Shown: in pieces, positions 10,997 to 39,019 of the stretch | Numbering within the stretch: the stretch's first letter is position 1 | How the letters are laid out: every line of letters starts with the position of its first letter | Virus record (IMG/VR): IMGVR_UViG_3300046461_000068 | Location: 1 to 54,543 of that record | Length of the DNA: 54,543 nucleotides | Origin: a virus | Strand: one strand, 5' to 3' | Position numbers and translations under genes: made by a program | The notes under the pieces: generated by a model | Seen by the model: only the letters and a program-made list of their open reading frames with translations | Told to the model about the DNA's origin: nothing | Databases searched by the model: none

Positions 10997-11003
10997 ACCA
11001 GTA

Positions 11004-11228
11004 ATGAGAACAAACTACACACTATGGCGAGCGCAAAACGGCTGGCTGCTTGTGCCGGAAGGAAATTCCGACAAGGCGATCAGCGCGAAAGACGTTGCGG
11101 AATGCGTCGTCTTTAAGACGCTCGATGAATTTGCGAAATTCTCCCCCAAGAGGGTTCGCAAAAGCAGAGCAACACCGAAAACCAAACCAGTAACAACGAA
11201 AGAACCCGAACATGCCAATATCACTTAA
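11004..11228 (+). CDS. Small hypothetical protein, predicted leaderless
   Basis: 74 residues starting MRTNYTLWRAQNGWLLVPEG. The N-terminal part (to KTLDEFAKF) has the look of a short beta-alpha domain seen in phage early genes; the C-terminus is a basic Lys/Thr/Pro tail. I chose the start at 11004 rather than a longer upstream frame because the promoter at 10969-10996 ends eight bases before it. Confidence 0.65.
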   Translation: MRTNYTLWRAQNGWLLVPEGNSDKAISAKDVAECVVFKTLDEFAKFSPKRVRKSRATPKTKPVTTKEPEHANIT

Positions 11229-11472: not shown

Positions 11473-11716
11473 CATACCAATCGAAGAACAGGACAAGCTA
11501 TGCCGCGAGGCTGGCTTTCCTACCATCACCGAGCAGCAGGAATACTGGAACAACAAAGAGGCGGCTGACCGTGAAAAGGCAAACCTTCTCCGCGCCGTGG
11601 ATGCCATGGCCGTGTTCCTCGATGAAATGAACAAGTCCACCGCGAAGCTGCGGATGGAATTTGAGAAATTAGCCCGGACATACCAACCGAAAGACGAAGA
11701 TCTTTCACCAGCTTAA
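11462..11716 (+). CDS. Helical coiled-coil protein
   Basis: 84 residues from MPGNIPIEEQDKLCREAG, mostly predicted helix with heptad-like spacing (RAVDAMAVFLDEMNKS, then LRMEFEKLARTY). The ATG at 11462 has GAAGGAAG directly upstream and overlaps the end of the previous gene. No family recognised. Confidence 0.65.
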   Translation: MPGNIPIEEQDKLCREAGFPTITEQQEYWNNKEAADREKANLLRAVDAMAVFLDEMNKSTAKLRMEFEKLARTYQPKDEDLSPA

Positions 11717-11721
11717 CAATT

Positions 11722-11796
11722 ATGCGGGAGATCGCATTGGAACTGCACTGTCATGCGGCAGGTCGGAGCAAGGCGCAAACGCTCTGCGTGGATTAG
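11722..11796 (+). CDS. Doubtful 24-residue ORF
   Basis: Encodes MREIALELHCHAAGRSKAQT and four more residues. It occupies an otherwise gene-free 130 bp between two operon genes. No ribosome site and no motif; included only because nothing else fills the gap. Confidence 0.25.
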   Translation: MREIALELHCHAAGRSKAQTLCVD

Positions 11797-11802
11797 CTAG
11801 AA

Positions 11803-11850
11803 ATGAAGCGCAGGAAACGCATTACCCGGTGGTCTCTCGCACCTTTATGA
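11803..11850 (+). CDS. Doubtful 15-residue basic peptide
   Basis: Encodes MKRRKRITRWSLAPL, ending as ATGA on the start of the next gene (11847). The coupling arrangement is the same as for the real genes around it, and the next gene lacks a ribosome site of its own, so this may act as a translation leader. Confidence 0.35.
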   Translation: MKRRKRITRWSLAPL

Positions 11851-12056
11851 AATACCACGAAAAAAAGAGCCTCGGTCACAAATACCGTCTTGTTAAAGAG
11901 ACCAACGCCAGTGGGAATGTCTATTGGAAGGTCGAAAAGAAAATCCTGTGGTGGTGGGAGAACGTGAACCTTTTTTGCAGTCAGCACGATGCCATCCACT
12001 TACTGGAACAGCTTCGGGCCGGAGTGCCGGAGAAAACACTGGAAGTAATCCAATGA
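11847..12056 (+). CDS. Small Trp-rich hypothetical protein
   Basis: 69 residues starting MKYHEKKSLGHKYRLVKE. It contains VYWKVEKKILWWWENVNLF and a helical C-terminus. No family recognised. The start at 11847 is chosen for its ATGA overlap with a preceding mini-ORF; an in-frame ATG at 11829 is the alternative. It overlaps the next start as ATGA. Confidence 0.6.
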   Translation: MKYHEKKSLGHKYRLVKETNASGNVYWKVEKKILWWWENVNLFCSQHDAIHLLEQLRAGVPEKTLEVIQ

Positions 12057-18898: not shown

Positions 18899-19368
18899 TG
18901 GCATTGCTCAATTACACCACCACGGTTCCCGCCGAGCGCACCATTGCAGAGATTCAGACAAAGCTGGCCAGAGCTGGTGCGCGGCAGATCATGCACGGCT
19001 ACGATGAGAAAGGGAACTGCACCGAGCTGGCATTCAAGATCAATACCAAATGGGGTGAGGTGGCATTCCTGCTGCCAGCCAACATCAATGCGGTTGACGC
19101 CATTCTGCGAAAGCAGATGAAGCGCATCCGCAACTACGACGCCCTGCGCGAGCAAGCAACTCGCGTGGGGTGGCGCATTCTGAAGGACTGGGTGGAGGCG
19201 CAGATCGCACTCATTGAGACCGGCATGGTCTCAGTCGAGCAGGTGTTTCTGCCCTTCGCGCAGGACGACAAGGGTGTGACCGTTTATGAATTTTTTGAGA
19301 AGCAGAAGTTCAAAGGTCTTGCCCTGATGGAGAGAACTAATGTAGTCGAAATGAAGGAAGCCAAATGA
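18898..19368 (+). CDS. Conserved phage hypothetical protein
   Basis: 156 residues. The pattern YTTTVPAERTIAEIQTKLAR, then INTKWGEVAFLLPANI, and later GWRILKDWVEAQIALIE with MVSVEQVFLPF belongs to a protein conserved in many tailed phages of environmental origin, usually in the middle of the genome. Function unknown. GGGAATC precedes the ATG. It overlaps the next start as ATGA. Confidence 0.8.
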   Translation: MALLNYTTTVPAERTIAEIQTKLARAGARQIMHGYDEKGNCTELAFKINTKWGEVAFLLPANINAVDAILRKQMKRIRNYDALREQATRVGWRILKDWVEAQIALIETGMVSVEQVFLPFAQDDKGVTVYEFFEKQKFKGLALMERTNVVEMKEAK

Positions 19369-21077
19369 TTGCTGTTTACCCATTCTGCACACGCGATGAA
19401 GACCAGGCGTTTAAGAACGCGCGTTGGTTCAACGAACTCGGAGGCTGTCAGGGCCATGAAGTTGTCTGCTGCTACGATCCCCGGTGTGACGCGCAGCTCG
19501 TAGAGAAGATCGGCCTTGAGTTGCTCAAGGCTTTCACCAAGGTTTACCGTCTCCCGGCGCAAGCCGAGATTGACGGCTGGCCACAGGGCGCGAATTACCT
19601 GTTCCGGTATGCCGCCACATGGTTACAGGCCAAGCCGCAATACGATCACTATCTCTGGCTTGAGCCGGATGCTGTCCCGATAACCCCGGGGTGGATGGAC
19701 ACTCTGGAGGGAGAATACAAACGCGGCAAGAAGCCTTTCATGGGCGAGCGCGTGGATCTCGGAACCGCGCGGCCTGATGTGCCAGTCCACATGTCCGGGA
19801 TAGGCATCTATCAGAACCCGATCTACCTGCTGGCCGGTGAGTGCTACCGCGCCAACGATGTTGCGTGGGACATCGCCGCCAAGGACCAGATCATTCCACA
19901 TGCCCATTTCACCAGCATGATTCAGCACTACTGGAAGCACGGCACTTTCACCCATGCCATGGAAGTCAGGCCGGAGACTGTGATCTTCCATTCCTCAAAG
20001 GATGGAAGCCTGATCGACGTTCTGCGGAAAAAGGCTGCGCCGGACCTTAATCCAAACTCCGTGGAGACGGAACCGACGAGTGGTTCGCCCTCGCGTGAAG
20101 AAATCGGAACTCTCCCGGCGCAGCCCATCCGGAAACTTCGTGGTGACATTTGGGTGCTGGAGGGTGATAAGATCATCAGCGAACAGGTGGTGCAGCATGG
20201 ACGCCTTGATTTTGATACCCTCATTCCTTACGTCACATCACTCATCAGACCCGGTGATACCGTGGTTGATGTTGGTGCTTTTATTGGGGATCATACTGTT
20301 GCGTATTCTCACGCGGTAGGCAAAGCCGGGAAGGTGATGGCCTACGAGCCTAACCCCAATGCGTTCAAGTGCCTCGTTCATAACACCAATGGCATGTCGA
20401 ATGTCTTTGGGTTTTGTCACGCCCTTGGAGCCTCAGACGGTGTAGCAGGACTGGTGGGAGAACATGCCTCAAGCTACATCTCTCATAACAACGAGGAACG
20501 AGGCCCGATCATTCAGGTCAGGCGACTCGACATTGATGCTTCCCTATTCGGGCAACTCGATCTCATTAAGATGGACGTTGAGGGCTATGAACTGAACGCT
20601 CTCAAAGGTATGGAGCTGCTCATCGAGAAGTTTCATCCGAAGATGGTGATTGAGATCAACGAAATTGCTCTCCAGCGGCAACGCGCCATTCCCAAGGATA
20701 TTCTGGACTGGCTCGGAGCGCATGGTTACAATGAAGTTAGCGTTCTTCATCGCCATGGTCCAGACGTTCCCTTCTATGATATTTTGGCCCTCGCCAAACA
20801 ACCACCGGAGATTTCCAGCAGCGTCGGGATGGCCCACACTGACGCACCGCCCGTCGCCGCGCCTCCGGTGGCTGCCCTTTTTAGGCCCACCGTCAAGGAA
20901 GAAATCCAATGGCACGTTGAAGTGCTAAGAGCATTCTGTGAACACGACCCTCAAGCGAAAGCTATGGTTATGCAAAAGCTGGTGTATGCTGGTCTTAGAC
21001 CACCTAACAAGAAAAAGAAACATGCAAAATCCAAGACTAATCAACGGGCCAACGGGAGCGGTGGGGCCACTGCTTAA
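19365..21077 (+). CDS. Glycosyltransferase - FkbM methyltransferase fusion
   Basis: 570 residues, two enzymes in one chain. Residues 1-230 look like a GT-A glycosyltransferase: HYLWLEPDAVPITPGWMD at 95-112 provides the acidic metal and sugar-nucleotide site, and CTRDEDQAF lies at the start. Residues 285-470 are an FkbM-family SAM methyltransferase: DTVVDVGAFIGDHT (SAM-binding loop), MAYEPNPNAF (acidic end of strand 2), LIKMDVEGYELNALKG and MVIEINE. By family it would transfer a sugar and methylate a sugar or similar acceptor. Virion, host-glycan or DNA-base decoration are all possible; no base-modification partner is seen. AAGGAAG precedes the ATG. Confidence 0.8.
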   Translation: MIAVYPFCTRDEDQAFKNARWFNELGGCQGHEVVCCYDPRCDAQLVEKIGLELLKAFTKVYRLPAQAEIDGWPQGANYLFRYAATWLQAKPQYDHYLWLEPDAVPITPGWMDTLEGEYKRGKKPFMGERVDLGTARPDVPVHMSGIGIYQNPIYLLAGECYRANDVAWDIAAKDQIIPHAHFTSMIQHYWKHGTFTHAMEVRPETVIFHSSKDGSLIDVLRKKAAPDLNPNSVETEPTSGSPSREEIGTLPAQPIRKLRGDIWVLEGDKIISEQVVQHGRLDFDTLIPYVTSLIRPGDTVVDVGAFIGDHTVAYSHAVGKAGKVMAYEPNPNAFKCLVHNTNGMSNVFGFCHALGASDGVAGLVGEHASSYISHNNEERGPIIQVRRLDIDASLFGQLDLIKMDVEGYELNALKGMELLIEKFHPKMVIEINEIALQRQRAIPKDILDWLGAHGYNEVSVLHRHGPDVPFYDILALAKQPPEISSSVGMAHTDAPPVAAPPVAALFRPTVKEEIQWHVEVLRAFCEHDPQAKAMVMQKLVYAGLRPPNKKKKHAKSKTNQRANGSGGATA

Positions 21078-21995: not shown

Positions 21996-23603
21996 TTATC
22001 CTGAGTAAACGGGACGTTTCCCCTTCCCGCGTGAACCTTTCGGTTCGGTGCTTGGCTTGTAGTAATGCGCTCCGAGCATTGCTGGAATCATAACAAAGAC
22101 AGCGTTCCTGAGTGACCTTAGCACCTTGGCGTTGAACTCCTCTGGAACCCCGGTCTGATCGGCCATGCTCTTGGAGAATTCATGGATGCCTTCCTCTGTG
22201 AAGATGGGGCCAAGTTCAGCGGTAACAAACTCCGCCCAGTGATAGAAGTCATTGGGTGCGTTCCCGAATGGAGCCGGAACATCGGTGCCACCAAAGCCGT
22301 AACCTTTCATCATTGTGCCCACGAAGTTGATGAACGGATGCACTTTCCCCAGGGCATAGTTTCCAAAGATGGTGGGAGCCTGCTTTGGGTTCATTGCCAT
22401 TCTCACCACGGTTCGGATCATCGACGTCTCGCCGCCGGTAGGATTGAGAATGCTTCCGTCCGGTGCTTTGATAGATGCCCAGTCCGGGGAATCGAAATCA
22501 CCCACGTTCACGTTCTCGTCGCTGCCAAAGAAGTGCTTGAGCAACATCTGATTCAATAACAGAATGGAACTTCCCACTGCGGCTATGCGAATCCACTGCC
22601 TGATGTTGTAACCCGCGATGTAACGCGCCTCCGGGCTGGCATCAGACCACACCTTCCTGAGCGTGTCGCCAATCACGGGCAACTTATTCAGGTTATGTCG
22701 GGCCAGGATCTGAGATGACTGAAGCAGATCGACGGGCCGCATCACCCGCGCGACATCCAGGGAAGGAGCGAACTCAATACCCCGGGCAGCCTTGCCGAAT
22801 TTTCCAGAGAGAGCCAGTGCCGCAGAAGGACCAGGCGCACCAGTCATGTGATTCACATAAGTTGACGCCCTTTTCCGCAGCTCATCCGTCTTCAGATGCT
22901 CCGGTGCGCCATCCATGACAGCATCCCAGCCGAAACCCCGGAGTTCTTTCAGCCCCAGGAAGCTGTGACTGAGCATTCGTCCTATCTTCCCGAAGAATCC
23001 TGCCCGGTGCTGAACGTCATCGTAGATCTTGCGCGGATCGGCAGCCAGACCGCTGGTGATTTTCTCGTCAAACCTGGGGTCGAGCATGATGCGCTGACCA
23101 ATGGCGCGAGCCTGGGATTCACTCATCGACTTGATGGAGTCCACCCATGTTTTTCCGAATCCCTTCCACATCACGGGGTCGAAGGCATACGGCCATGCAT
23201 GAGTGCCGTGCAGTGCCGTGGAGTGACCGAAGACCTTGAGGGAATACGGAGCCTGGTAAGCACCAGTGAAGAACCTGTTGAGTGGCGACTTCTCGGTGCC
23301 TGCCACGAAATCCCTGGCCTGACGCAACATCTGTTGCCTGTTGCGGTCAGCCAGCAGCAGGTTTTTACTCCGGGGTTTCACCGCCTTTGGTGTCGCCAGC
23401 ACTTTTGCCACCTCCTCCGGGACCATGCGAACCCCGGTCCTTTTGTAGATGTCATCCGAAAGCCTGGTGGTTAGCTCCTTGAAATCCGGGTATCCATATC
23501 TTCCCGGCTGCTTCAGATATTTCTCTTTGGCGTAATCCCAGAGTTCCTTGGCATCCCTGATGGTGTAACAAGGCGAGACTGAGATGCTTGGGACGGTAGG
23601 CAT
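21996..23603 (-). CDS. Large polyvalent-protein-associated C-terminal domain protein
   Basis: 535 residues. It has the features of the C-terminal region of very large phage internal proteins: FTGAYQAPYSLKVFGHSTAL, a long helical middle, SSILLLNQMLLKHFFG (hydrophobic, about 360-375), and FINFVGTMMKGYG with an ALGKVHPFI core (LPD38-like by memory). In other phages these sequences are fused to giant ejected proteins; here they are a separate gene whose start shares the stop base of the 2015-residue gene upstream. A role in the ejected internal core is inferred. Confidence 0.65.
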   Translation of the reverse strand: MPTVPSISVSPCYTIRDAKELWDYAKEKYLKQPGRYGYPDFKELTTRLSDDIYKRTGVRMVPEEVAKVLATPKAVKPRSKNLLLADRNRQQMLRQARDFVAGTEKSPLNRFFTGAYQAPYSLKVFGHSTALHGTHAWPYAFDPVMWKGFGKTWVDSIKSMSESQARAIGQRIMLDPRFDEKITSGLAADPRKIYDDVQHRAGFFGKIGRMLSHSFLGLKELRGFGWDAVMDGAPEHLKTDELRKRASTYVNHMTGAPGPSAALALSGKFGKAARGIEFAPSLDVARVMRPVDLLQSSQILARHNLNKLPVIGDTLRKVWSDASPEARYIAGYNIRQWIRIAAVGSSILLLNQMLLKHFFGSDENVNVGDFDSPDWASIKAPDGSILNPTGGETSMIRTVVRMAMNPKQAPTIFGNYALGKVHPFINFVGTMMKGYGFGGTDVPAPFGNAPNDFYHWAEFVTAELGPIFTEEGIHEFSKSMADQTGVPEEFNAKVLRSLRNAVFVMIPAMLGAHYYKPSTEPKGSRGKGKRPVYSG

Positions 23604-26600
23604 TAGCAGGGCTTTCTCTTTTTGCTGATTCCCTTGGTGGCAGTGTCGATGGTGGCCGGACCTTTTCGGTCAGTTTTGATCCGGCCCAGCTCGTTGTCGA
23701 TCGAATTATACAGCTCGGCGGTGTCCTTCATGTATTGCGACTGGGCCTTGGTGGTCTTATCGGCAATCTGCCTGGCTTCAGCTTCCTCTGGCACCATTGA
23801 TTCCCGGCCTCTTATCTCCCTGAATCGACGCATAAGCCCGGTGAAGGATGACGCCGTGCGCGGGTCAATGGGTGCAGATCCATCGAGAGTCTTCAGGGTG
23901 TCCCGGGCCACGGCATCCATGGGACGATAAGCATTGGTGAAGTCTTCCTCTGCTCTCTGAGCTGCGTTGAATTTCCTTTCCAGATCCGCATCGTGCGGGT
24001 GCTTCATCAGCGCATCCCCGGCCTCGTTAGTGGCTGCCTGCAAGTCATCCAGATGTGCCCGGGCCTTCCCCATATCAGCGGCGGTCACCTTCCCGGTCTT
24101 GTGAAAATTATCGACCACACCCTTGATGTCGCCTCCTGCGGCCAGCCATTCCCTGCCTTGGGTCAGGGATTCGTGCCACCCGATTGGTGGACGTCGCGGC
24201 TCAGTTTCCACGGTGGGAACCGGCTCTTTGGCAGCAACAGCTCTGGTGGTTGGCGACAGAGCCTCGACCATCCGCGAAGGAGTCATGTCTCCTTTGAGGA
24301 TCATGTCGCGCATCTGAGAGTCCATGTCCCAATGCTTTGCGCGATCCGCCAGACTGCGGAGTTCAGCCAGCTTATGGGCTACATCGGCAGGATTTTCGAC
24401 ATTGACTCCTAATGCCCGGGCTTTTTCCGGGTGCCGTGCCGCGCCAGCCACGGAACTGATGTGCTGGTTCAACTCTCTCTGAAGTGCGCTGGCTCTTTTC
24501 CCCGCGTCGGCCATGGCTTGCATGGCTGTGTCATCGGATGACAGCAGATCGAGCTGATGTGAGTGCGGATGGCCGCCCAGATTCGCCCGGACACCTCGGA
24601 TCAAATTGCCAACCGACTGGCCGCTTTCTCCACCAAGGGCGGCCTTTATCCCAACGCGCTGAAGCCCTTCATTGCCTGGGGCGGCTTCTGCGATCGCTTG
24701 AGCCTGCGCGTCGGATATGCGGCCAGACTGGTGTAGTCCAAAGAGCGATTCGCCGCTTCCTCGCGCGATTGAGAATCCGGCTTTGCCAGTTCCCCGCGCC
24801 AGAAGTCCTCTGGACTCGGCTGCTTGCTGCGTGATCCCTGAATTCCTGAAGTAGTTTGCATAATCTGCTACGCTCCCTTGGTTGTCTCTGATGTTTAGTT
24901 CCGCGTCAAGCCGCGCTGCCTGACGCGCGTCGAATCCGTTCACCTCGCGGTGGATCTGTGAAGGGATGGTTTTTTCCCCGGTGCGCTTTGCCAGATCGAA
25001 CCTGTGCCGTCCGGAAATCAGCTCCAGCTTTCCATTGCGACGCTCCCAGAGCTGCACGGGAGGAGTTCCAACTCTCTCGTATTTTCCAGCCAGTGGTTCC
25101 ACCACGCCCTGCTCGTTTGCCCCGGACTTAAACTGGGGCACATCCTTGCTCAAGGAGATCTTGTTCAGAGGAACCTCTGAGATCGGATAGCCGGTGGCGT
25201 GAGTGGCAGTGTCCGGCGGAGCTGGAAGTGCCAGCCGTGGTTTCAGTTTAATGAACTCACCCTCGATGTCCGGAGGATTAAGATCCCTGCCAGGAAAAGG
25301 ATGACCGCGATTCGCTTCATCGAGCATGTCCGGAACTGAAAACGACTGCGGCCTGCCAGCTCTTTGCTGGAAAAAAGCCTGCGCTTCTTTGAATCGCCTC
25401 ATTTCCGAGTCGTCTCTCAGGTTGACGAATTGCTCCCATTCCCTGGGAGAAAGCGGAGGGCCGGAAGCATTTTCAAACTTGGTGTGCTTCTGCTGCAATT
25501 TTCGATACATCGCCTCATCGTGTTCGGCCTTAGTGATGTCGCCATTATCCAGTGAGCCTTTCAGTCCGGCGTCACTCATGGTTGACAGCTCCTGCATCCG
25601 GGTTTCAGGATCTACAACCAGCGGTATTTCGCGTGCAGTTTTCGGCGGAGTAACCTTGTGCGCGGTGAGTTGATCTCGATCCGGTTTCTTAATCCCAATG
25701 CCTTGCTTCTCCAGGTATGCGGCACGATCCCTGAGAACCTGTTCCACCTCGGGCGGGACCAGTGGCATGGCGTTGATCTTTGCGATCGCTGCATCGGCCT
25801 GGGCCTGGCTGTAGGTCTTCGGACCAACATCTTTCTGCCAGCCGTCGATCATTCTTTTGCGGCTCGCCAGTGCTTCTTCCTTGAATTGCTGCGCCAGCTT
25901 GTAGGCCTTGTTGAAATCGCCCATCGCCTTGGCGTTTATCATCTCCCGCAGTGGAGACACCGGAGGAGGCGCGGCCTTGCCGCCAGCTCTTGGCGGAACG
26001 AATGGAATTATGTCGCCGCCAGCGGTCTGGCTACCCTGTTGTTGCGGCTGTTGCTGCGGGATGGACGAAAGATGCTTTGCGATCCCTGGGACCGGCGGTT
26101 GCGGAGGAGGTTTAGGCTTCTGGAACTCCAGTCCCCCCGGGGGAATTGGAACTTCCCGCTCCGGCCTTGTCGGTTCTGCGGATTTTTGCGTCCAGTCCAG
26201 CTTGGTGCTTCTGCTGCTCGGATCGAATGTAGTCCCGCTCGACTGCGCTTGGCTCCCAGGTGTCCCATCCTTCTCCCCAGACTCCAGATCCGCTTCGTGG
26301 GGTTTCATCCCCTTCATCAACTTCAGCTCCTCGTCGATCTGGTGAATCTCCGCTTCGCTGACTTTCCATTCCGGCAATTTACCCGTCTGTCGGAAATGTC
26401 CAATCTCATCCTGAATGGTGAGGCCGATGGCGGTCGCGTCTCCTTCGGCCAGATCAATACGGTAGCCTTTGGTTTCCCCGGGGATAGGCGCACGCACATC
26501 GCCTCCCACAAACACACCTGGCATTTTCGTTCTACGGCTTCCGTCACCAAGGGTTTCCACGAACCCTCCCTTTTTCCCCACCTTGGTTAAGGTGATACCC

Positions 26601-29600
26601 TTCGGCAGCCATGCCGTGTTATTCTCACCGCCCAGGAAATTCTCAACGTGGGCAACTTTGAAGGTGTAGTCAGCCCTGGGGTTATCCTCGGAAGGACCGA
26701 CATGAACTGTTCTGCTCCCATCGGGATTTGCAGTAACATGATCTATGGTCCCGGTTACCAGTTCGACATTGCCTTTGCTGACATGATCCAGGATGCGTCG
26801 ATCCTGATTGATGCTGGCCTCCGGGCCAAATTTGTGCCGGGTAACCACGGTCACTTTTTTGGTTCCCAGGTCCAGTGATCCGAGGACAGCCTGCGTCACG
26901 GCATTGCTGCCGCCATACACCATGCCTTCTTTTCCGTTGGTCAGATTCTTGAACCGCTCAGTGCTTGCCCAGCCGGTATATTGAGACCCGGGGTAAGGTC
27001 TGATTGCTGGTTTTGTCCCAGGGAAAAGGGCCACCCTGCTTGCGGGAATGGTCTTTATGTTTACGAGAGCATTACCCCTTCTCTCGCCAGTAATAACATG
27101 AACACTGCCATCCGGTTGGTCGATGATGTTTACGACTTCCGTGTTGGTCCGGATTTCCGCACCGCCATTTCTGGCGGTCTCGATTTTTGCGTTAAAGTAG
27201 TCTCGCCCTGTTGAACCCCGCGCTCCCCTTCCGACATTGAACAGCTCCAGGGATTCCTTTGCAGCACCACCAGCCCTGGCTCCAGCCTCTATGCCCAGAA
27301 CCCTGAGTCCCTCGTAAGGAAGATGACCGAGCATCTTAGATCCGGCTGCTCCAATCCCGACTACAACCACATCGTAATTTTGCCCGGACTTCTCCCAGAG
27401 TTTGTGCTGCTCCCTGAAATTATCCCATAGAGCCTGCTGCTTATCGCCCCAGTCCTGCCTTTCCTCCCTGGTTATTCTCCTGGATTCAGACAGTTTCTCG
27501 TAGCGAAGCACTGCATTCTGCAAACCGGCTGCGTCATCCTCCAGTTGATGGAGTTGAACCTGTTCTTCAGGTTGAAGCTTGGTAGGCTCGGTTGTTTTAA
27601 TTATCTTGCCAGAAGCGTCCCTGCCTTCCCGCCGTTCGCCGGACAGGAGGCGTCCCAGCTCATGCGTTTTTTCCACCGGGATGGGAAGCGGGTCTTCACC
27701 ACGGGCAATCCGCGCGGTGTTCTCTATTCTCAGGTCGTGCAGTTCGTCATCGAGCTGTTTGGCGCGAAGTTGCTCCGGGGTTGATGGTCCCCCTTCAGCT
27801 TTGGCCTTGTCCTCGATCGCCTTAACCAGAGCGTCTCTTTCCTGGGTCTTCAGGATCGACGGTCTTTCTCCGCGTTTGTAGATGTCGGAGATTTCCTTCT
27901 GGAGTGCCTTGAGACGGACAGCATCCGTGTCGGCTTCCGGGGCTTGCTGTGGCGCACCCTTGATTGCTTCAGTGGCGATCTCCCGGAAACCACCCTTCTT
28001 AATAATCAGCTCTCCCTCGGATTCGTTACCTGCGGCAACAACATCTTCGCGCCGGACAAATCCCTTTGTTACTTTCGCCCCGCGCTTGGCCGCATTCACT
28101 CCAAAGTCAGGAAGTGTTGAAACAGAAATGTGGTCACCGACACCTTGGCCGGTTGCACCATGCTCGTAGCCTTCGACCCTGGTGACAGGGATGAGTTCAT
28201 CTCCGTAATGGAGTTTCAGGACTCTTTGGAGATCGTCATAATACGCGGGGTAATCTTCGTGCCTTAAAGCATCAACCAATCCCTGCCCTTCCTGACCGTG
28301 CGTGTAGCGGTCAATGGCGGCTGCGACAATGGGATGCTCCTGGTTGATCCCTTCCTCGATCAAGCCATCTCCGATCGGCTTCGGCTCATGCTTCGGACCA
28401 CCCATGTTCTCATCAAGGATCTTCTGCTGCGCGGCTTCGTCCTTGGCGGCATACATTTCACCGATGCGCTTTTCGATTCCGCCCTTGGATGACTCAGGGG
28501 TTGGTGGCAAAGCGTCCGGAGGAAGTTCACCAGCGATCTGCTTGTTGAGGTGATCTATCTCATCAATTTTTGCCTGAATCTTTTCAGGCGGCATACCTGG
28601 GACATTTTTCAGCAGCTCAACTTCATGCTGCGCTTCCTTGACTCGTCTTTCCCATCCGCCTATTTGCCCTGGTGTCGCTTTTGGTGCCTCGGATACCACG
28701 GGCGCGGCGTTGGGGACGGGTTCTGTGCGTGGTAGCTGCCCCCCTGCTGCCGCTCCTTGCGGCGTTCCGACAACATAATCGCTATCGCCTGGGATCGGGA
28801 TTGAACCATCGGGCCGTGCTTGCTGCCCGAGTGCAGTTCCCCCGCCTTGAACTTGTGCATCACCTGGTTGCTTGGCATAAGGTTGAACTCCTGGTATTTC
28901 CTGCGTTTGGATTGGCGGCTTCGCCAATGGCTCTGTCCCCGGCCCCGGAATTGGTGGGCCTGGAATCGGCTCCTGAAATTTTACTTCACCGACACTGCTC
29001 TCAAAATCCGCCGGGTTAAAGATACCGGGAGGAGGCGGAACGGCTCCTGGTTTGGGAATCCCCGGGCGAGCTATGTCGCCCATGGCTTTAAGTCCGGCGA
29101 GCTGCGCCAGATCGAACACGGTTCCTATTCCAGCATCATATCTTTCCTGTGATCCAGCCGGAGTCTGGTCTGCCGCATGAATCTCTTTAGCCCGATTGTA
29201 AACCTGCTCCGGGAAGTCCATCCCTGCTCTCAGGGGTGGAAAATACAATCCCAGCCACTGCTTAATACCTTCAGGAGTAGTAGGAGCCTGAGTTGGAATT
29301 CCGGCGGATCTCGCCCACTGCTCTCCGGTCTGAGGCACCATGCCTGAAATATATTTCCCAACCGCCGAAGCGGTCTTCCCAAATGGTGCTGGGTAACCAC
29401 TCCAGTCCACCGGATTGTATTGAGACGCCGCGTTCTTCTGAGTGAATGCCATGTATCTCTGGAACATCCCCATGGCACCATCGGTGGCGGGAGTGGAAGA
29501 AACAGGAGCGGATGGTTGAGGCTGCGCTGTTGCGGCAGGCTTATTGCCGCCAGTGACCTGTTCCCAGGATAACGCCCCGGAGCTGTCAGGCTGCTGCGGT

Positions 29601-29650
29601 GGAGGAGAAGACCCTCCTACCACCTCCTCGTATGAAAGCCCGTCTGCCAT
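23603..29650 (-). CDS. Giant polyvalent internal protein with ART-, TrxR- and ParB-like domains
   Basis: 2015 residues. The start has two LSYEEVVGG-type repeats. About 460-560 resembles an ADP-ribosyltransferase: HISVSTLPDF (S-T-S) and ESEGELIIK (E-x-E). About 755-1085 is a complete thioredoxin-reductase-like flavoprotein fold: VVVVGIGAAGSKML (FAD site), GMVYGGSNAVTQAVLG (NAD(P)H site), and GVFVGGDVRAPIPGE with AEGDATAIGL (second FAD site). The redox CxxC of true thioredoxin reductase is absent. About 1485-1610 is ParB/sulfiredoxin-like: ELISGRHRFDLAKRTGE. The remainder is helical and Pro-rich. Multi-domain proteins of this style are ejected with the DNA and act on the host. The flavoprotein module inside one is unusual. 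Confidence 0.75.
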   Translation of the reverse strand: MADGLSYEEVVGGSSPPPQQPDSSGALSWEQVTGGNKPAATAQPQPSAPVSSTPATDGAMGMFQRYMAFTQKNAASQYNPVDWSGYPAPFGKTASAVGKYISGMVPQTGEQWARSAGIPTQAPTTPEGIKQWLGLYFPPLRAGMDFPEQVYNRAKEIHAADQTPAGSQERYDAGIGTVFDLAQLAGLKAMGDIARPGIPKPGAVPPPPGIFNPADFESSVGEVKFQEPIPGPPIPGPGTEPLAKPPIQTQEIPGVQPYAKQPGDAQVQGGGTALGQQARPDGSIPIPGDSDYVVGTPQGAAAGGQLPRTEPVPNAAPVVSEAPKATPGQIGGWERRVKEAQHEVELLKNVPGMPPEKIQAKIDEIDHLNKQIAGELPPDALPPTPESSKGGIEKRIGEMYAAKDEAAQQKILDENMGGPKHEPKPIGDGLIEEGINQEHPIVAAAIDRYTHGQEGQGLVDALRHEDYPAYYDDLQRVLKLHYGDELIPVTRVEGYEHGATGQGVGDHISVSTLPDFGVNAAKRGAKVTKGFVRREDVVAAGNESEGELIIKKGGFREIATEAIKGAPQQAPEADTDAVRLKALQKEISDIYKRGERPSILKTQERDALVKAIEDKAKAEGGPSTPEQLRAKQLDDELHDLRIENTARIARGEDPLPIPVEKTHELGRLLSGERREGRDASGKIIKTTEPTKLQPEEQVQLHQLEDDAAGLQNAVLRYEKLSESRRITREERQDWGDKQQALWDNFREQHKLWEKSGQNYDVVVVGIGAAGSKMLGHLPYEGLRVLGIEAGARAGGAAKESLELFNVGRGARGSTGRDYFNAKIETARNGGAEIRTNTEVVNIIDQPDGSVHVITGERRGNALVNIKTIPASRVALFPGTKPAIRPYPGSQYTGWASTERFKNLTNGKEGMVYGGSNAVTQAVLGSLDLGTKKVTVVTRHKFGPEASINQDRRILDHVSKGNVELVTGTIDHVTANPDGSRTVHVGPSEDNPRADYTFKVAHVENFLGGENNTAWLPKGITLTKVGKKGGFVETLGDGSRRTKMPGVFVGGDVRAPIPGETKGYRIDLAEGDATAIGLTIQDEIGHFRQTGKLPEWKVSEAEIHQIDEELKLMKGMKPHEADLESGEKDGTPGSQAQSSGTTFDPSSRSTKLDWTQKSAEPTRPEREVPIPPGGLEFQKPKPPPQPPVPGIAKHLSSIPQQQPQQQGSQTAGGDIIPFVPPRAGGKAAPPPVSPLREMINAKAMGDFNKAYKLAQQFKEEALASRKRMIDGWQKDVGPKTYSQAQADAAIAKINAMPLVPPEVEQVLRDRAAYLEKQGIGIKKPDRDQLTAHKVTPPKTAREIPLVVDPETRMQELSTMSDAGLKGSLDNGDITKAEHDEAMYRKLQQKHTKFENASGPPLSPREWEQFVNLRDDSEMRRFKEAQAFFQQRAGRPQSFSVPDMLDEANRGHPFPGRDLNPPDIEGEFIKLKPRLALPAPPDTATHATGYPISEVPLNKISLSKDVPQFKSGANEQGVVEPLAGKYERVGTPPVQLWERRNGKLELISGRHRFDLAKRTGEKTIPSQIHREVNGFDARQAARLDAELNIRDNQGSVADYANYFRNSGITQQAAESRGLLARGTGKAGFSIARGSGESLFGLHQSGRISDAQAQAIAEAAPGNEGLQRVGIKAALGGESGQSVGNLIRGVRANLGGHPHSHQLDLLSSDDTAMQAMADAGKRASALQRELNQHISSVAGAARHPEKARALGVNVENPADVAHKLAELRSLADRAKHWDMDSQMRDMILKGDMTPSRMVEALSPTTRAVAAKEPVPTVETEPRRPPIGWHESLTQGREWLAAGGDIKGVVDNFHKTGKVTAADMGKARAHLDDLQAATNEAGDALMKHPHDADLERKFNAAQRAEEDFTNAYRPMDAVARDTLKTLDGSAPIDPRTASSFTGLMRRFREIRGRESMVPEEAEARQIADKTTKAQSQYMKDTAELYNSIDNELGRIKTDRKGPATIDTATKGISKKRKPC

Positions 29651-29652: not shown

Positions 29653-30633
29653 TTACGGTGGGACAAATTGTGTTCCCGTCCAGCGCAGATCACCCTGGTC
29701 CGTCTGATAAACCACACCGGCCTGCATCTGCTGCTTCGTCGTTGGCAGCGGCTGCGTTTGGTAGGTTCCCTTATCCACCGATGGCAATGACGATACCCGA
29801 TCCTGGATTTGCTGGTATCTCCTGGCCTGATCGGTCAGCCATTGCGAGGAAATTATTCGTGGTTTTCCAACAGGCTTCCCGTTTACATACTGCTGGATTT
29901 GCTTCATCCCGGTGGATGGTGCTTCCGGCTTCGGGTAACCAGGCACTCCCAATCTCTGTTGCCAGGTCAGGTTTGCCTTCTGCTCGTCCGTCAGTTCTCC
30001 GGGAACATCCGGGTATAACTCTGGATGCAGAACGGGGTTGGTGTCAGTGTTCTGAATGTTGCCCCAAAGCTGACTGCTAACACCATGCTGCCATGCCTTG
30101 GTGTCGGACTCGATTCCTCTCCTGGCATTGATAACAGCGTTCTGTTGCAGCCTCGCCTTGTTATTCCTGGCCTGAGTGTAGAACGAAGGCGGAGCATACT
30201 GGTAATCAGGGTTTCCCAGGATGTTGTCGATCTTCGACATGTAATCAGGGTCGAGTGGATTCGCGTCGAGGCTGGCAAAGTCCCTGGAAATTCCAGAAAC
30301 GCTGTCCTGCATCTTTTTTCTGTCACCCACTTTTTCATCGAAGATGTCCTGCTTTAACTGGAGCGCACCTTCCCTCAAGCCCACGCCTTGCTGCATCCCA
30401 TAAAGCTTCATCTCGTTCAGCTTGTCCTTCATCGCGCTGTCTGCTTCGATCTGGGCGTTCTTCTGCTGCAACGCCTGCATTTTGCCTTCAAACTCCTGCT
30501 GCTTCAGCTTGAGTCCGGTGGACAAAGCCCATGCATTAAGGAACGTCTCCGCCGGATTCCCGAGGGCGATGTTCTTGTAGGGGATCTGATTGGCTTCAGC
30601 CTGTGCTGCTGTTAGTCCTGATGCGTCTGCCAT
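29653..30633 (-). CDS. Coiled-coil structural protein, probable internal or tail protein
   Basis: 326 residues. Residues 40-115 are a long coiled coil (KQQEFEGKMQALQQKNAQIE and onward). The C-terminus LPTTKQQMQAGVVYQTDQGD, then LRWTGTQFVPP, is a short beta unit found at the ends of several phage structural proteins. The position beside the giant protein and the helical make-up suggest an internal core or tail-interior protein. Two bases separate it from the next gene. Confidence 0.6.
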   Translation of the reverse strand: MADASGLTAAQAEANQIPYKNIALGNPAETFLNAWALSTGLKLKQQEFEGKMQALQQKNAQIEADSAMKDKLNEMKLYGMQQGVGLREGALQLKQDIFDEKVGDRKKMQDSVSGISRDFASLDANPLDPDYMSKIDNILGNPDYQYAPPSFYTQARNNKARLQQNAVINARRGIESDTKAWQHGVSSQLWGNIQNTDTNPVLHPELYPDVPGELTDEQKANLTWQQRLGVPGYPKPEAPSTGMKQIQQYVNGKPVGKPRIISSQWLTDQARRYQQIQDRVSSLPSVDKGTYQTQPLPTTKQQMQAGVVYQTDQGDLRWTGTQFVPP

Positions 30634-30637: not shown

Positions 30638-31564
30638 TTATCCTTGGTTGAAGTGCAGGTTGCCTCCGAGGAGATTAGAGAACGACCCTATCAGGCCCGG
30701 GTATTGTGATGAAGGATTAACTGCCGGGCCGTAACCACCAGCGGGAATCGCTGCGGGATAACCGCTCTCTCCATAGACAGGCCGTGATGCTCCAGCGGCT
30801 GCGTAGTTCGCGCTGAGTGCGCCCATGTCGGAACCCGAGGGACCGCCCTGCGCTGAAGAAGCGAAGTAGTTTGGCGCGACCCCGCCGCCACCGCCGCCTT
30901 TCCCTGCACCAAGGTAGGCACCAATCAGATTGATGATGGTGTCACTGATTCCTTTTGCCACGGGGTTGGGAGCAGCTCTCTGGTTTTCCGCGCGTTGCTC
31001 AGTCTGCTGCCTGTAAAGATTGTTCTGCATGGTCATGGCAGCCTGCTCCTGTGGCGAGATAAAGAACGACGCAGGATTCATGTTCAACTGACTGGCCATC
31101 GACGCCCATGTCTGTGCAGCGTTCTGCCCGGCCTGACCGGTTGCTATTCCCTTGTTAATCATGTCCAGGGATGTGAGACCGAGATTCCTCGCCTGGTTCG
31201 CGGTCCCCATCGCGCCACCCCACAAACCAGAACCGAGATTCTGGAACGCAGTGCTTCTGGTAACCTGGTCAACGACATCCTGTGGGATTTGTCCGGCCAG
31301 CTCCTCGGCGGAAAGGCTCTGCAACGTCTTGGTGAGATCGCCGCCACGCGCGAGAATATCGCTAAACCCGGGGATGGATCGGTTCATCATCCCCAGCATG
31401 TAATCGTAATACTCACCACCCAGAGACTTGATCCACGGCATTGCCGCCAGATCTTCCTTGAGAGCCTTTATCTGCTCATCACCAAGGTTGGTTGGAGTGT
31501 AGGGAATGATGTCCGGGGTTGACCCGAACACCTCTGAAAGAACCGGTATGTTGTCTGATGGCAT
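30638..31564 (-). CDS. Structural hypothetical protein, Ala/Gly-rich tail
   Basis: 308 residues. A helical N-terminal two thirds (QIKALKEDLAAMPWIKSLG ... LSAEELAGQIPQDVVDQVTR) and a flexible C-terminus with a Gly6 run and many Ala, Ser and Tyr. It contains GISDTIINLIGAYLGAG, a possible short hydrophobic helix. No named family; the place between connector-type and internal proteins suggests a virion component. Confidence 0.55.
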   Translation of the reverse strand: MPSDNIPVLSEVFGSTPDIIPYTPTNLGDEQIKALKEDLAAMPWIKSLGGEYYDYMLGMMNRSIPGFSDILARGGDLTKTLQSLSAEELAGQIPQDVVDQVTRSTAFQNLGSGLWGGAMGTANQARNLGLTSLDMINKGIATGQAGQNAAQTWASMASQLNMNPASFFISPQEQAAMTMQNNLYRQQTEQRAENQRAAPNPVAKGISDTIINLIGAYLGAGKGGGGGGVAPNYFASSAQGGPSGSDMGALSANYAAAGASRPVYGESGYPAAIPAGGYGPAVNPSSQYPGLIGSFSNLLGGNLHFNQG

Positions 31565-34123: not shown

Positions 34124-35778
34124 TATTCAATGATCTCCCTTAGCCACAGGTCACCATCATACATCTCGTTTTCCGTGAACGGAGTCGATTCTTGCGAGGC
34201 CTGAAAGTCGAGCGTCCTGGACACGAATTCCCACGGGATTCTTTCATTAACGAAGTCATCCCTGTCGTCCTTTGAAACCTCGTAAAGCTGGTTTTGCTCA
34301 TTCTCATCCAGTCCAAAACAAAATGCCCGGGTCTTCCCGTCGAACGTGCCGGTGAGTAGCTGGAGTGGGCGGAACCGATCGCATTTCCACTGGCCCTCCC
34401 ATGCTGGTTTGGCGGTCTGCGGGGCTTGTGGGCTTCCGGCAAAGGAACTGATGACGTCAAAGTCCACCGCCACTACCCCGGTGTGATACGGCCTGCCATT
34501 ATTCCACGCGGGAGATGTGGTGAAAATGATCCGGTTGTCGAAGTAGATCGAGGAGGCGTATTTCAGGAGGAAGTCGCTGTCGTTCTCCAGGAATTGCCTC
34601 ACGTTGGTCGAGAGCGGAACGTGCGCCCATCCGCTGGGTTCGCTTCGGGCCTGGCGATATGAGCGCACGCCATCGTCACTCCGAAACCAGAGATCTTCAT
34701 TCACCACTGAGATACTGCGGTGGCCGCGCATGCCCGTGGTTAAAAGGGACAGCACCTGGAACGCGCTGGTCTTCCACTGCTCGCGCGGAATGGACAGGAA
34801 GAAGCTGGCCGAGCCGCGCTCCGCAAACGCCATGAGCTGACCGTTGCCCGTGGAGGTGTCCAACTGGGCGAAAAATGACAGTCCTGTTACTTTTCCCTGC
34901 TGGAAGGGAATCGCCGCGTCAAAGCCTTCCGCCAGGAAGTTCCGCTCCGTGAAAAGCACCAGGGAATCCGCTGGATCAGACAGATCATGGCTGCCATAAA
35001 GATCACCAAAAGCGATGTCTCGGTCATTGACGACCACAACCAGGCGACCCATACCGTAGGCCATAATTGTGCCAACCGGGATCTCAGTCTGCTCCGCTGT
35101 TCCCGTGGTCTTGGCTCTCCTGGCCTTGTTGGAATCATAAATGATCGCTCCGCCGGTTCCGTCCTGCGCGATCAGGAATTTGTCAGCCTGGCACATGTAG
35201 GCAATCTTCCGATTCCTCATGTTGCGAACACTTCTGGGGTCATCTTCGATCTTGATCTCGATTGCCTTCGCTGTCTTTATCCCCGGGGTAATCTTGAACA
35301 GGCGTCCACCGATCATCGCCATGATGCAATCGTCTCCGTTGTGAGGCGAGTAACACTGGGCACACTGGAAAATGCCGTTCCTGTAAACATAGTCTGAGTT
35401 CTCGTTATTCAGGTTCGGTGGCACGAAGAAGTAAGGCGGGTCCGGCAAAGGAACAGCAGGGACGCCTTCCTTATCAGGATCGGCATACTCGCCTTCAATC
35501 CTGTCCACGAACTGGGAATGAAACCTGGTGTTGTAACACCAAAGCTGCCTGTCAGTGTGAATGGTCCTGTCCGGGAAGTTGGGATGGTCCACCATTGGAG
35601 GAAACGCCTCGTCTATTCTCCGGAACCCCGGGCGCGTAGTGATGCTCCCTCCACGGAAGGTCATATTGATCGCGCTCTGGACCTGGTTTGGATCGAGCAG
35701 GTTCGGCTGACGACCGGCGTCCACGCCGCCTTCCAGCGTGCGCCATCCGTCGAAAATCCTGTTTTTATCAACGATCAT
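34123..35778 (-). CDS. Beta-propeller-like tail hub or stabilisation protein
   Basis: 551 residues, mainly beta. The N-terminus RTLEGGVDAGRQPNLLDPNQ and INMTFRGGSITTRPGFRR is typical of a podovirus-type protein group that plugs or extends the neck (stabilisation or tail-hub proteins). Repeats such as DKFLIAQDGTGGAIIYDS and EDLWFRSDDGVRSYRQAR fit blades of a propeller. Coupled to both neighbours by overlaps. The name is by pattern and position, not by a catalytic motif. Confidence 0.65.
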   Translation of the reverse strand: MIVDKNRIFDGWRTLEGGVDAGRQPNLLDPNQVQSAINMTFRGGSITTRPGFRRIDEAFPPMVDHPNFPDRTIHTDRQLWCYNTRFHSQFVDRIEGEYADPDKEGVPAVPLPDPPYFFVPPNLNNENSDYVYRNGIFQCAQCYSPHNGDDCIMAMIGGRLFKITPGIKTAKAIEIKIEDDPRSVRNMRNRKIAYMCQADKFLIAQDGTGGAIIYDSNKARRAKTTGTAEQTEIPVGTIMAYGMGRLVVVVNDRDIAFGDLYGSHDLSDPADSLVLFTERNFLAEGFDAAIPFQQGKVTGLSFFAQLDTSTGNGQLMAFAERGSASFFLSIPREQWKTSAFQVLSLLTTGMRGHRSISVVNEDLWFRSDDGVRSYRQARSEPSGWAHVPLSTNVRQFLENDSDFLLKYASSIYFDNRIIFTTSPAWNNGRPYHTGVVAVDFDVISSFAGSPQAPQTAKPAWEGQWKCDRFRPLQLLTGTFDGKTRAFCFGLDENEQNQLYEVSKDDRDDFVNERIPWEFVSRTLDFQASQESTPFTENEMYDGDLWLREIIE

Positions 35779-37682
35779 TTCGGAGAGTATTTTCCACTTG
35801 TTGCGTGCATCATTTGAGAGGTCGGCACGGCGGCTGCCGGTTGCTCGCTGCCGCCACGAAACCTATCCACGATTGACTGGTAAAAACCTGGTTCATTTAC
35901 TAACCTGTTATGAAAATCAACCTGCCCTCCATGGTAAGCGTTCCAGTTCCAGCCCGGATTCATTGTGCTTCCAAGCGGCTGGCTGGCCCAGGGACTCGGC
36001 ATGGCGTGTTTCATCAATCCAAAGTTCTGTGGCGTGGTGTAAATACCCTTACGCATCTGGGTTAGCCAATGCAGTGCTTCGCCGTTTCCCCTGCCCCATA
36101 GTGCGGCGGCACTCGTCGGCCCATACATGGGAGGACCACCACCTCCCTGCGGTGCTGGAACACTGGAACTTCCAACCTGTCCGACCCCGAAGGGATTCGT
36201 CGGTGAGTTGATGTCAGGATTAAAGTTAGTCTGAGAACCAAAGAAGCCGCCCCTTCCACTGGGATCACTGCCCAGTCGCTCAAGGCCGCTCTGAGTGTTG
36301 GGGCCGGTCTGGACAGGACCAAACGCGCCTTCGGCGGCCAGCTTGCCCATGTCTCCCCCGGTGTCAGCGTTCCAATATGGTCCACCGGGAACATTGGTGT
36401 TGTATCCGCTAGGTGTAACACCAGCCAGTCTCTGCGCGAATGTCTTGGCAGCATCACCGGCAGCGGCAACAATCTTTCCAGCACCATCAATGATGTTGCC
36501 AGCCGTGTCAGTAAAGAACTGGCCTACGCCTCCACCGCCAGGGAATTGCGTCATGTTAAAGGCGTTGGCGTTGCCTTCTGGCGAAACTGCTGTTCCGGGA
36601 ATGACGTTGCCATTTGCATCTAGCATTCCTTGAGTTGGAGGAGCGTAATTAAACCCGGGCGCGTTGGGCAACAATCCGGGGTCAGCACCACCAACCGGAT
36701 TTGGTCCGGATGGGCTGTAGTAACCTGTCGGCGGAGTCCCGGCAGCACCTCCGGCGAATCCACCACCTCCGCCCGAAGTGTCGTCCGGTGGAGCAACAGC
36801 TCCTCCTCCTGGAAATTGGTCAACAAAGAAGGGCCACTGGAAATCACCTCCTGTCGTGTCAGCTCCGGTCGCCACAGTGGAAGGCTGCTGGTAGCCGGAC
36901 ATGTCGGGAAGGTTGTCGAAATCCCCAAGGTCGGTCGGAGGTGCCATTCCGGTTCCGGCACTTAGATTTCCACTCCAGTCCGGAGTAGGAGGCGGCGGGA
37001 ACAATTCATTATAGATCCCGGCGTAGGGATTATCCGGGGGATTCGGGGCATTGACATTCAGATGCACCGTATCGGTGCCGAAGGGGTTCTCCGGAATGCC
37101 TGAAGGCTGCCCAAAGGGATCGACCGGCAGATCCATAAATGGCGGATAAACTCCAGGAGGCACATCCATGCCCTCATGTGGCATTCCGCCGACCGGAATT
37201 GGTGTTGGTTCAATGCTGGGATCGCCAAACTGCATACCAGGACGACTGTCGGGAGGCAGTGCTTGCAGTCCGGCAGGATTACCGAGATCTCCTTCCCTGA
37301 TGGCGCGTTGCGTCATCCGCGTGAACAAATCAGTGTCCATGGCGTGATACTCCATCTGTAACGCCGTGTTTGATCCCGGCCCTTCATAATTCACCGGGGT
37401 TGTAGCTGGCTGCGCTGGCTCATTCGGAAAGGTTGGAACCTGTCCGGTGCCGACAGGAAAAGGCCTGGCTGACGGGAAGGAAGGATCATCCAGCCAGACA
37501 TTCGGGTCAGTGCTGGCGCGGAAAATGTTCGGGTTCGGAGACAGTTGATTCGGAGACAGCGGTTGCCCGGAGATGAAAGGATCAACGCCCTGACGGAACT
37601 GGGGATAACTTCCAGCCGAAGGCGATGACGATCCACCTCCGCCGTAGAGCTGCATCAGGTATTGAAACTGTTGATCTGTCAT
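35775..37682 (-). CDS. Pro/Gly-rich low-complexity virion protein
   Basis: 635 residues from MTDQQFQYLMQLYGGGG. Very rich in Pro, Gly, Asn and Ser throughout, with few charged residues. Only the C-terminal 120 residues (ALHWLTQMRKGIYTTPQNFG, then NRLVNEPGFYQSIVDRF) look folded. The start at 37680-37682 overlaps the previous stop as ATGA. A flexible linker or fibre-associated protein is likely. It is similar in make-up to the 284-residue protein at 14666. Confidence 0.6.
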   Translation of the reverse strand: MTDQQFQYLMQLYGGGGSSSPSAGSYPQFRQGVDPFISGQPLSPNQLSPNPNIFRASTDPNVWLDDPSFPSARPFPVGTGQVPTFPNEPAQPATTPVNYEGPGSNTALQMEYHAMDTDLFTRMTQRAIREGDLGNPAGLQALPPDSRPGMQFGDPSIEPTPIPVGGMPHEGMDVPPGVYPPFMDLPVDPFGQPSGIPENPFGTDTVHLNVNAPNPPDNPYAGIYNELFPPPPTPDWSGNLSAGTGMAPPTDLGDFDNLPDMSGYQQPSTVATGADTTGGDFQWPFFVDQFPGGGAVAPPDDTSGGGGGFAGGAAGTPPTGYYSPSGPNPVGGADPGLLPNAPGFNYAPPTQGMLDANGNVIPGTAVSPEGNANAFNMTQFPGGGGVGQFFTDTAGNIIDGAGKIVAAAGDAAKTFAQRLAGVTPSGYNTNVPGGPYWNADTGGDMGKLAAEGAFGPVQTGPNTQSGLERLGSDPSGRGGFFGSQTNFNPDINSPTNPFGVGQVGSSSVPAPQGGGGPPMYGPTSAAALWGRGNGEALHWLTQMRKGIYTTPQNFGLMKHAMPSPWASQPLGSTMNPGWNWNAYHGGQVDFHNRLVNEPGFYQSIVDRFRGGSEQPAAAVPTSQMMHATSGKYSPK

Positions 37683-39019
37683 GGGAGTTCGTAGGCGCAA
37701 ACTGACACCGCGCCGATGTTGGCAGTCCCGATCCCTCCATTGGTTGCAAGCTGCACATCAATCCAGATTGGAATTCCCAACGATAGGCCGCCGATAACGA
37801 AACTCATCGAGAATGGAACAAGCGCGTTGGCTGCCAGCCTTGTGCATCCCGCGTAACCTCCGATTGGCGCACTGCCAGCCGGTGGATTGTCGCCATTGTG
37901 AGGAGCTGCCCCGGTGCCGATTCTGATCTGGGCGATCGCGCTGCCTGCGGCGTTGTTATTCCACATCCAGCCGTGAATGGTAGCAGTGACTTTGCCGCTG
38001 GTGAGAAGCGTTATCACCGCGTTAAGGCCCATCATCTTAAAAGCTGCGGATGTCGTTCCTGTAACCGTGTCCTGCTTGACAGTCTGGACGGCGGCGTAAT
38101 TAGGAACGGTGATCCCGGGAACGGCTACCCATTTGGAGTCGTAATCGTCAGGAGAATTCTTGACCAGGACGTCATTTGTCGCTCCTCCTGCCGGAACCCC
38201 GGGGCCGGGAGGACCAGGATCTCCTTGGCCAGATCCGATCACCGCAAAGAGAATCCATGCCTTTGGATCTCCATTCGCTGTTTGAGGCGAGACCTGGACC
38301 CAGCTCGTCCCCGCGTTTGCGTTGCCTTCCCGCACCGTGCAGTAGGCGCGGTTCACCTCATCGAAGGTGTCCATGTCCGGGGCTGTGGTCCACGCTCCGG
38401 TCTGGGCAATCCAGATCGTGTTCTCGCTTTCCCTGCCAGTCTGATCCTTCAGGAGAATCCGGTCACCGGCCCGTGGAACTACGCCATCAACGGCGTGAAG
38501 GCCGACATGGGAATGGAAAGTCGTGCTGGCCAGTCTCACCGCTGTCTTGGGATTGAGTCCCTGGAGCAGCATATCCATGAAGGACTTGGTTACCGCATCC
38601 TGCGCGTTGATCGGATTCGCCAGGTTGATGATCCTCTTGCTGGCCAGATTGACGTCTGCCCCGGGCTGCCGGATCTGATCGAGTTTCGCCAGATACGTCC
38701 CAGAGATGATTCCTCCCTGCCACGTTCCTACAGCAATCGTTCCCAGTTCGGTGATGTGACGCTGCTGTCCATTCACACCAGCAGTGAGCTGTCCGGCCAG
38801 ATCCACGAAACCAGGCTGCTTCACGGTCCATACATGCGTGGGATTATCCCAGCCTTGCAGCCACTGGTTCCCCGGGGGATGAATGGTTGGAGGTGCGCCC
38901 AGCTCCTGAAGATTGGATGTGTCGAGGTTCAGCAGCTTGTGGTGCTGCATGTCCACATCGTTCTGCGCCAGCGCGTGCCACAGCAAACTGTGTCCGGTTC
39001 CTGCTACTTCGATTGCCAT
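37679..39019 (-). CDS. Tail fibre protein B-tip with shared C-terminal domain
   Basis: 446 residues. The N-terminal 150 contain the fibre repeat NLASKRIINLANPINAQDAV (common in phage fibre shafts). A short collagen-like GDPGPPGPG at about 270 acts as a hinge. The last 130 residues (from about YAAVQTVKQD to AVSVCAYELP) match the C-terminal domain of the proteins at 40110 and 43060: G..T..I.G, RIGTGAAPHNG, PFSMSFVIGG, WIDVQLAT, ending ELP. This is the probable receptor-binding tip. Confidence 0.7.
   Translation of the reverse strand: MAIEVAGTGHSLLWHALAQNDVDMQHHKLLNLDTSNLQELGAPPTIHPPGNQWLQGWDNPTHVWTVKQPGFVDLAGQLTAGVNGQQRHITELGTIAVGTWQGGIISGTYLAKLDQIRQPGADVNLASKRIINLANPINAQDAVTKSFMDMLLQGLNPKTAVRLASTTFHSHVGLHAVDGVVPRAGDRILLKDQTGRESENTIWIAQTGAWTTAPDMDTFDEVNRAYCTVREGNANAGTSWVQVSPQTANGDPKAWILFAVIGSGQGDPGPPGPGVPAGGATNDVLVKNSPDDYDSKWVAVPGITVPNYAAVQTVKQDTVTGTTSAAFKMMGLNAVITLLTSGKVTATIHGWMWNNNAAGSAIAQIRIGTGAAPHNGDNPPAGSAPIGGYAGCTRLAANALVPFSMSFVIGGLSLGIPIWIDVQLATNGGIGTANIGAVSVCAYELP

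Follow-up and report, generated by a model that had tools for sequence, protein, structure and literature searches.

The window analysed here, a 54,543-nt stretch corresponding to the IMG/VR virus record IMGVR_UViG_3300046461_000068, carries a stop-free open reading frame (ORF) on its minus strand that encodes a giant protein of 2015 amino acids (aa), placed among phage virion genes and downstream of tail-fibre-type genes. An earlier note on this DNA had proposed that the protein holds a flavoprotein resembling thioredoxin reductase (TrxR) without the redox-active CxxC motif. Our comparisons of profiles, motifs and a predicted structure confirmed that residues ~750-1090 form a predicted TrxR-fold flavoprotein module that keeps the core motifs for binding flavin adenine dinucleotide (FAD) and nicotinamide adenine dinucleotide (NAD) and has no CxxC. 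On balance, we favour the view that the giant is a polyvalent-type ejection protein whose cysteine (Cys)-free flavoprotein cargo would refold in the host, take up FAD and use NAD(P)H without thiols.

The fold of the module was recovered by profile, sequence and structure searches. Pfam Pyr_redox_2 (PF07992) matched residues 759-1057 (E = 6.8e-10, above the gathering score), phrog_6397 matched residues 758-1083 (E = 2.6e-13), both well beyond chance, and phmmer against PDB sequences returned thioredoxin reductases (7aaw at 7.8e-6). An AlphaFold2 model computed with a 27-sequence alignment reached a mean predicted local distance difference test (pLDDT) score of 85 over the module and a predicted template modelling (pTM) score of 0.81. 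When this model was searched against PDB with Foldseek, thioredoxin reductases came out on top (4gcm at 4.9e-20, then 3r9u and 7aaw), with template modelling (TM) scores of 0.64-0.66 and a root-mean-square deviation of ~5 Å, probably because the two Rossmann domains can lie at different angles to each other in the TrxR fold. Pfam, PHROG and AlphaFold/Foldseek thus bore out the earlier assignment. The NCBIfam TrxR equivalog TIGR01292 scored the module at 28.8 bits, below its 343-bit cut-off.

The module recurs in other phages. Scanning IMG/VR for the ParB-type module of the giant revealed 70 further loci with giant proteins. Profile searching of the ORFs at these loci detected the FAD module at a single one, which comes from a second phage of this group (L011; IMG/VR 3300045119_000359, 54,810 b). 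The L011 giant has 2254 aa and the same order of N-terminus, FAD module, ParB-type module and C-terminus, with identities of 44% (FAD), 57% (ParB) and 61% (C-terminus), and, at places occupied by other sequence in the window giant, it carries an HATPase_c/HSP90-like module and a HEITH motif. This segment (L011 positions 10916-12043) resembles HSP90/GHKL ATPases (NCBIfam PRK14083, 2e-12) and is followed by the HEITH motif, which is metallopeptidase-like. An alignment of the FAD module at family level, used as query, added an unrelated Mu-type phage, represented by two assemblies (L110 and L111) that are identical over 12,858 bases. The L111 ORF of 1986 aa contains Portal_Mu (84-437), Phage_Mu_F (1421-1522) and Pyr_redox_2 (1660-1946; E = 2.6e-32), such that the FAD module lies C-terminal to portal and MuF. 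Each of these polypeptides joins several unrelated domains: FAD and ParB-type modules in the window giant, FAD and HATPase in L011, and portal, MuF and FAD in L111 (the latter two by Pfam). In L111, repeated 'WDEDLHPRDDAGKF'-type motifs stand ahead of the cargo segments of the portal-MuF-FAD ORF (1024-6984 and downstream); Cys-poor proteins encoded downstream bear the same WDEDLHPRDDAGKF-type motif, one of them with a weak match to KptA/ADP-ribosyltransferase (ART)-like sequences. Genome and viral scans with alignments of the FAD module, the companion proteins (Table 1) and the C-terminal module returned the L011 phage only, and at the sensitivity of these scans the genome collections contained no close relatives. 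In a search for prophage giants with the FAD module among ~700 bacterial genomes, no phage-type carrier was seen, only cellular ORFs (mostly 540-700 aa), a weak negative given that only 5-7 candidates per genome were scored.

The cofactor-binding motifs comprise GIGAAG, GG 794-795, N805, G878, GGSNA and GGDVR, and an acidic residue, E788, closes beta-2 (E, E and D across the three phage copies). Eleven of eleven core positions (the GIGAAG glycines, GG 794-795, N805, G878, G913, N916, G1050 and D1051) were identical in the window, L011 and L111, although just 19% of all columns are identical in all three (hypergeometric p = 5e-9 for the enrichment at core positions). The alignment therefore agrees with the earlier claim that both FAD sites and the NAD(P)H site are present, with no loss of cofactor residues at the core motifs. 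CxxC is absent, with GWAST in its place, and the module is without any Cys.

The nearest cellular relatives, identified by tblastn against plasmids and by a genome scan, are proteins of ~550-650 aa that combine cNMP_binding with Pyr_redox_2 and have no CxxC. This family is common in cells, with strong matches in 45 of 398 Pseudomonadota genomes and 46 of 297 genomes of the phylum of L100. Because these relatives already lack CxxC, the motif was probably absent before phage capture, and its loss by decay in phages is unlikely. Maximum-likelihood trees placed the three phage modules together (support 98/90, or 93/91 minus two long rows), outside the cNMP-type and TrxR clades. The grouping involves long branches and the approximately unbiased (AU) test leaves alternatives (p = 0.10), so that a single phage lineage of modules is favoured rather than shown. 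Separately, we rejected the 'ribonucleotide reductase large subunit' label of phrog_6397: phage G gp344 (L114, NC_023719.1), which is so named, is a CAVC thioredoxin reductase, similarly named Lactococcus phage proteins (BFVD E0YIZ6 and A0A0D3MT87) match the same fold, and the name appears to be an annotation error that has been passed on.

The giant and its surroundings contain almost no cysteine. Together with three companions (326, 308 and 535 aa), the giant has 2 Cys in 3184 aa, versus 139 in 11,215 aa for the other genes counted (p about 1e-11, from a slightly overlapping table), and for the 71 ParB-type giants the median is 0.30 Cys per 1000. In the control phages T7, P22 and N4 (L119, L120 and L121), ejected proteins total 2 Cys in 8051 aa versus 144 in 15,247 for their other proteins (Fisher p = 4e-24), made up of T7 gp6.7, gp7.3, gp14, gp15 and gp16 (2 in 2448 aa), P22 gp7, gp20 and gp16 (0 in 1309 aa) and the N4 vRNAP with its neighbours gp51 and gp52 (0 in 4294 aa). 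The ejection of gp7.3, gp51 and gp52 is less sure than that of the rest, and all three are Cys-free, so their omission leaves the picture unchanged. The three phage modules have no Cys, versus 11.6 per 1000 in relatives (p = 8e-6), and all 7 Cys of the L111 protein are confined to its portal and MuF parts. Cysteine avoidance is a natural reading of the near-absence in ejected proteins, and passage through the tail may leave such depletion as a general mark on the proteins concerned; the literature searches made turned up no paper that states this, which proves little.

Giants with the same ParB-type module sit after head-completion and ejection-type genes in Vibrio phages 1.211, 1.183 and D478, which have P22-like gene orders. 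This module is 41-45% identical between the window giant and the giants of those phages and of Shewanella phage X14; its GRHR motif is conserved in the alignment, it has no Pfam match, and the name ParB refers to motif and context rather than to a computed fold. Indirect support for the earlier suggestion of an ejected polyvalent protein comes from gene order, from the pronounced lack of Cys and from the ParB-type module in common with the giants of Vibrio and Shewanella phages; the giant is probably packaged and ejected with the DNA.

Under the reading we favour, the giant would be packaged in the virion, exit the head via the tail as an unfolded chain, accompanied by the Cys-poor companion proteins, and refold inside the host. 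The cargo module, presumably derived from the CxxC-less branch of the TrxR fold, would then pick up host FAD and NAD(P)H. Lacking thiols, it cannot act as a dithiol reductase, and it would most likely oxidise NAD(P)H as a flavin enzyme, with oxygen, a quinone or a protein carrier as electron acceptor. Such direct flavin chemistry (oxidase, diaphorase, or carrier reductase like the TrxR-type ferredoxin-NADP+ reductases) is the most likely activity, and the outcome would be a shifted NAD(P)H pool or protection of the incoming phage. The presence of the same FAD module in two different virion-type carriers, the ParB-type giant and the portal-MuF fusion, supports a role as ejected cargo.

Several observations weigh against this account. 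AlphaFold from two phage sequences alone was poor (pLDDT 36), which indicates that the good model leans on the cellular relatives in its alignment. The position after GG is A796 in the window and Q in L011 and L111, P877 precedes G878 in place of T/S, and the TrxR motif for the NADPH phosphate, HRRxxxR, is down to a lone R938; through this drift, catalysis or NADPH preference may be lost, and with HRRxxxR gone the choice between NADH and NADPH cannot be read from the sequence. The module is also rare (2 of 71 ParB-type giants), no close match to it occurred in 398 Pseudomonadota genomes, and FAD needs to be re-acquired once the chain has unfolded.

The main rival to direct flavin chemistry is sensing, in which the redox state of FAD/NAD(P)H, or a ligand, switches neighbouring modules (the ParB-type nuclease/NTPase or others) on or off after delivery; the earlier note had raised both an effect on host redox state and ligand sensing, on condition that the protein is ejected. 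The missing thiol active site, the cNMP-binding sensor domain among cellular relatives and the constant occurrence of the FAD module within multi-module proteins are in its favour. We nevertheless consider it unlikely, since an NAD(P)H-binding motif is retained beside FAD, as in enzymes, and the surrounding modules vary between carriers, which leaves no constant partner to regulate. Less probable still is a mechanical or degenerate module, an inert spacer or cargo fold in the course of losing cofactor binding. The changes at A796 and P877 and in the phosphate-binding motif would fit such decay, as would fast divergence (44% identity between the window and L011, versus 78% for the neighbouring gene), but none of the core cofactor positions differs among the three copies, against changes in 81% of columns, and Pyr_redox_2 scores well in L111 (E = 3e-32). 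We likewise hold it improbable, to a slightly greater degree, that the giant, as a late or virion-scaffold protein, never reaches the host cell and owes its Cys depletion to virion assembly. Some non-ejected virion proteins are indeed Cys-free (the N4 major capsid protein and N4 gp57; window 35775-37700), yet depletion over thousands of residues resembles proven ejected proteins and the adjacent cassette rather than tail or capsid genes as a class, and ParB-type giants come after the ejection genes in P22-like phages. A chimera of two genes merged in assembly, a concern of the earlier note that is suggested by the strain-chimeric contig end with its mismatched 473-b terminal repeat, is for practical purposes refuted by the same module order in the independent L011 phage, the FAD fusions of L110/L111 and a codon composition that is unbroken across the FAD module.

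The recurrence of a Cys-free module in the portal fusion of an unrelated phage suggests that some phage infections open with the delivery of a protein that is redox-active or senses redox state. A redox-type flavoprotein would thereby join the apparent cargo that accompanies phage DNA into the cell, with one module in two unrelated carriers. Whether host NAD(P)H is manipulated by phages ahead of all gene expression becomes a directly testable question. The near-absence of Cys offers a simple composition test that parts proven ejected from other virion proteins and could find delivered effectors genome-wide. More speculatively, and with considerable doubt, there may exist a distinct lineage of Cys-free TrxR-fold flavoproteins that serve solely as ejected cargo, are exchanged between unrelated carriers (ParB-type giant, portal-MuF fusion) and attack or buffer host NAD(P)H at the onset of infection, for example to blunt NAD+-based immunity, with Cys depletion as a general, searchable signature of ejection.

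Positions of the giant gene, its modules and its companions are collected in Table 1. N-terminal tandem repeats comparable to the LSYEEVVGG type also occur in other giants (NPFDQFD, FDPDAYL, DFSKFGTPV). At residues ~440-560 (window 28100-28330), a pattern like that of ADP-ribosyltransferases was noted by eye (R / S-x-S / E-x-E, as VTR, SVST and EGE); with no Pfam support even at E = 10, it is a lead only.

Table 1. Giant gene of the window, its motifs and modules, and companion genes
Feature	Window position	Strand	Basis or remark
Giant gene, polyvalent-type, product probably ejected	23603..29650	-	ORF, intact in its own record; single Cys is residue 2015
N-terminal tandem motif LSYEEVVGG...LSWEQVTGG	29546..29638	-	Sequence
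TrxR-fold FAD/NAD(P)-binding module, Cys-free (residues 750-1090)	26381..27403	-	Pfam PF07992, PHROG, AlphaFold model, PDB fold search
GIGAAG (765-770), FAD GxGxxG motif	27341..27358	-	Alignment/sequence
GWAST (893-897), position of the TrxR CxxC	26960..26974	-	Alignment; YWASP in bacterial CxxC-less relatives
GGSNA (913-917), NAD(P)H-binding motif	26900..26914	-	Alignment
GGDVR (1049-1053), second FAD-binding motif	26492..26506	-	Alignment
ParB/Srx-like module (residues 1486-1791)	24278..25195	-	Named from motif and context
C-terminal module (residues 1808-2006)	23633..24229	-	61% identical to L011, not found elsewhere
535-aa companion, probable ejection/membrane protein	21996..23603	-	78% identical in L011; 1 Cys
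326-aa companion, probable ejection protein	29653..30633	-	0 Cys
308-aa companion, probable ejection protein	30638..31564	-	0 Cys

Elsewhere in the window, positions 1-473 and 54071-54543 form a repeat in which the first 127 bases are exact and 36 mismatches follow, mostly at third codon positions of an ATPase/terminase-like gene; a complete genome of ~54.07 kb is probable, with a contig end that derives from a related strain. A gene for an FkbM-type methyltransferase (19365-21077; PF05050, 2e-21), the N-terminal half of which is glycosyltransferase-like, adjoins the virion cluster and has a close counterpart in L011 (15946-17658). Several fibre-like genes stand in a row, among them one for a collagen-repeat tail fibre-like protein (43060-44523).

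Compared with known systems, the phage modules share with the bacterial cNMP_binding + Pyr_redox_2 flavoproteins the absence of CxxC and the replacement of C-A-x-C by W-A-S, but they are Cys-free, belong to giant phage proteins, branch in the trees, with long branches and tentatively, apart from the cellular clade and have no cNMP domain (Pfam detected no PF00027 in the window giant or its parts). Thioredoxin reductase (TrxB), including the free-standing enzymes of phage G (gp344), Microcystis phage MaAM05 and Enterococcus phage EF1, has the same fold and FAD/NAD(P) motifs, whereas the module described here lacks the redox-active CxxC and is part of a giant protein. TrxR-like ferredoxin/flavodoxin-NADP+ reductases, which appeared in the fold-search list, likewise have the TrxR fold without CxxC; their profile score is below that of the TrxRs, and the likeness is one of fold. 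With the ejection proteins T7 gp14-16, P22 gp7/gp20/gp16 and the N4 vRNAP, the giant has in common near-zero Cys, cassette position and, for vRNAP, great length, a resemblance that is not a claim of homology and is accompanied by a different module content. Polyvalent proteins are a known class in phages, with a DdrB-like subset that contains ParB (Iyer et al. 2017, PMC5512222). Neither a flavoprotein nor an FAD-dependent oxidoreductase domain is mentioned for carriers of this kind in the main text of that survey, of a survey of viral NAD+-ADPr systems (PMC9503650) or of one of MuF toxins (PMC5576092), to which this comparison is confined, consistent with the earlier impression that a flavoreductase in a polyvalent protein was undescribed. 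The window giant resembles the polyvalent proteins, as presented in the main text of PMC5512222, in its giant multi-module build, its place among late genes, its ParB-type module and the swapping of modules between relatives, and it differs from them by its flavoprotein module.

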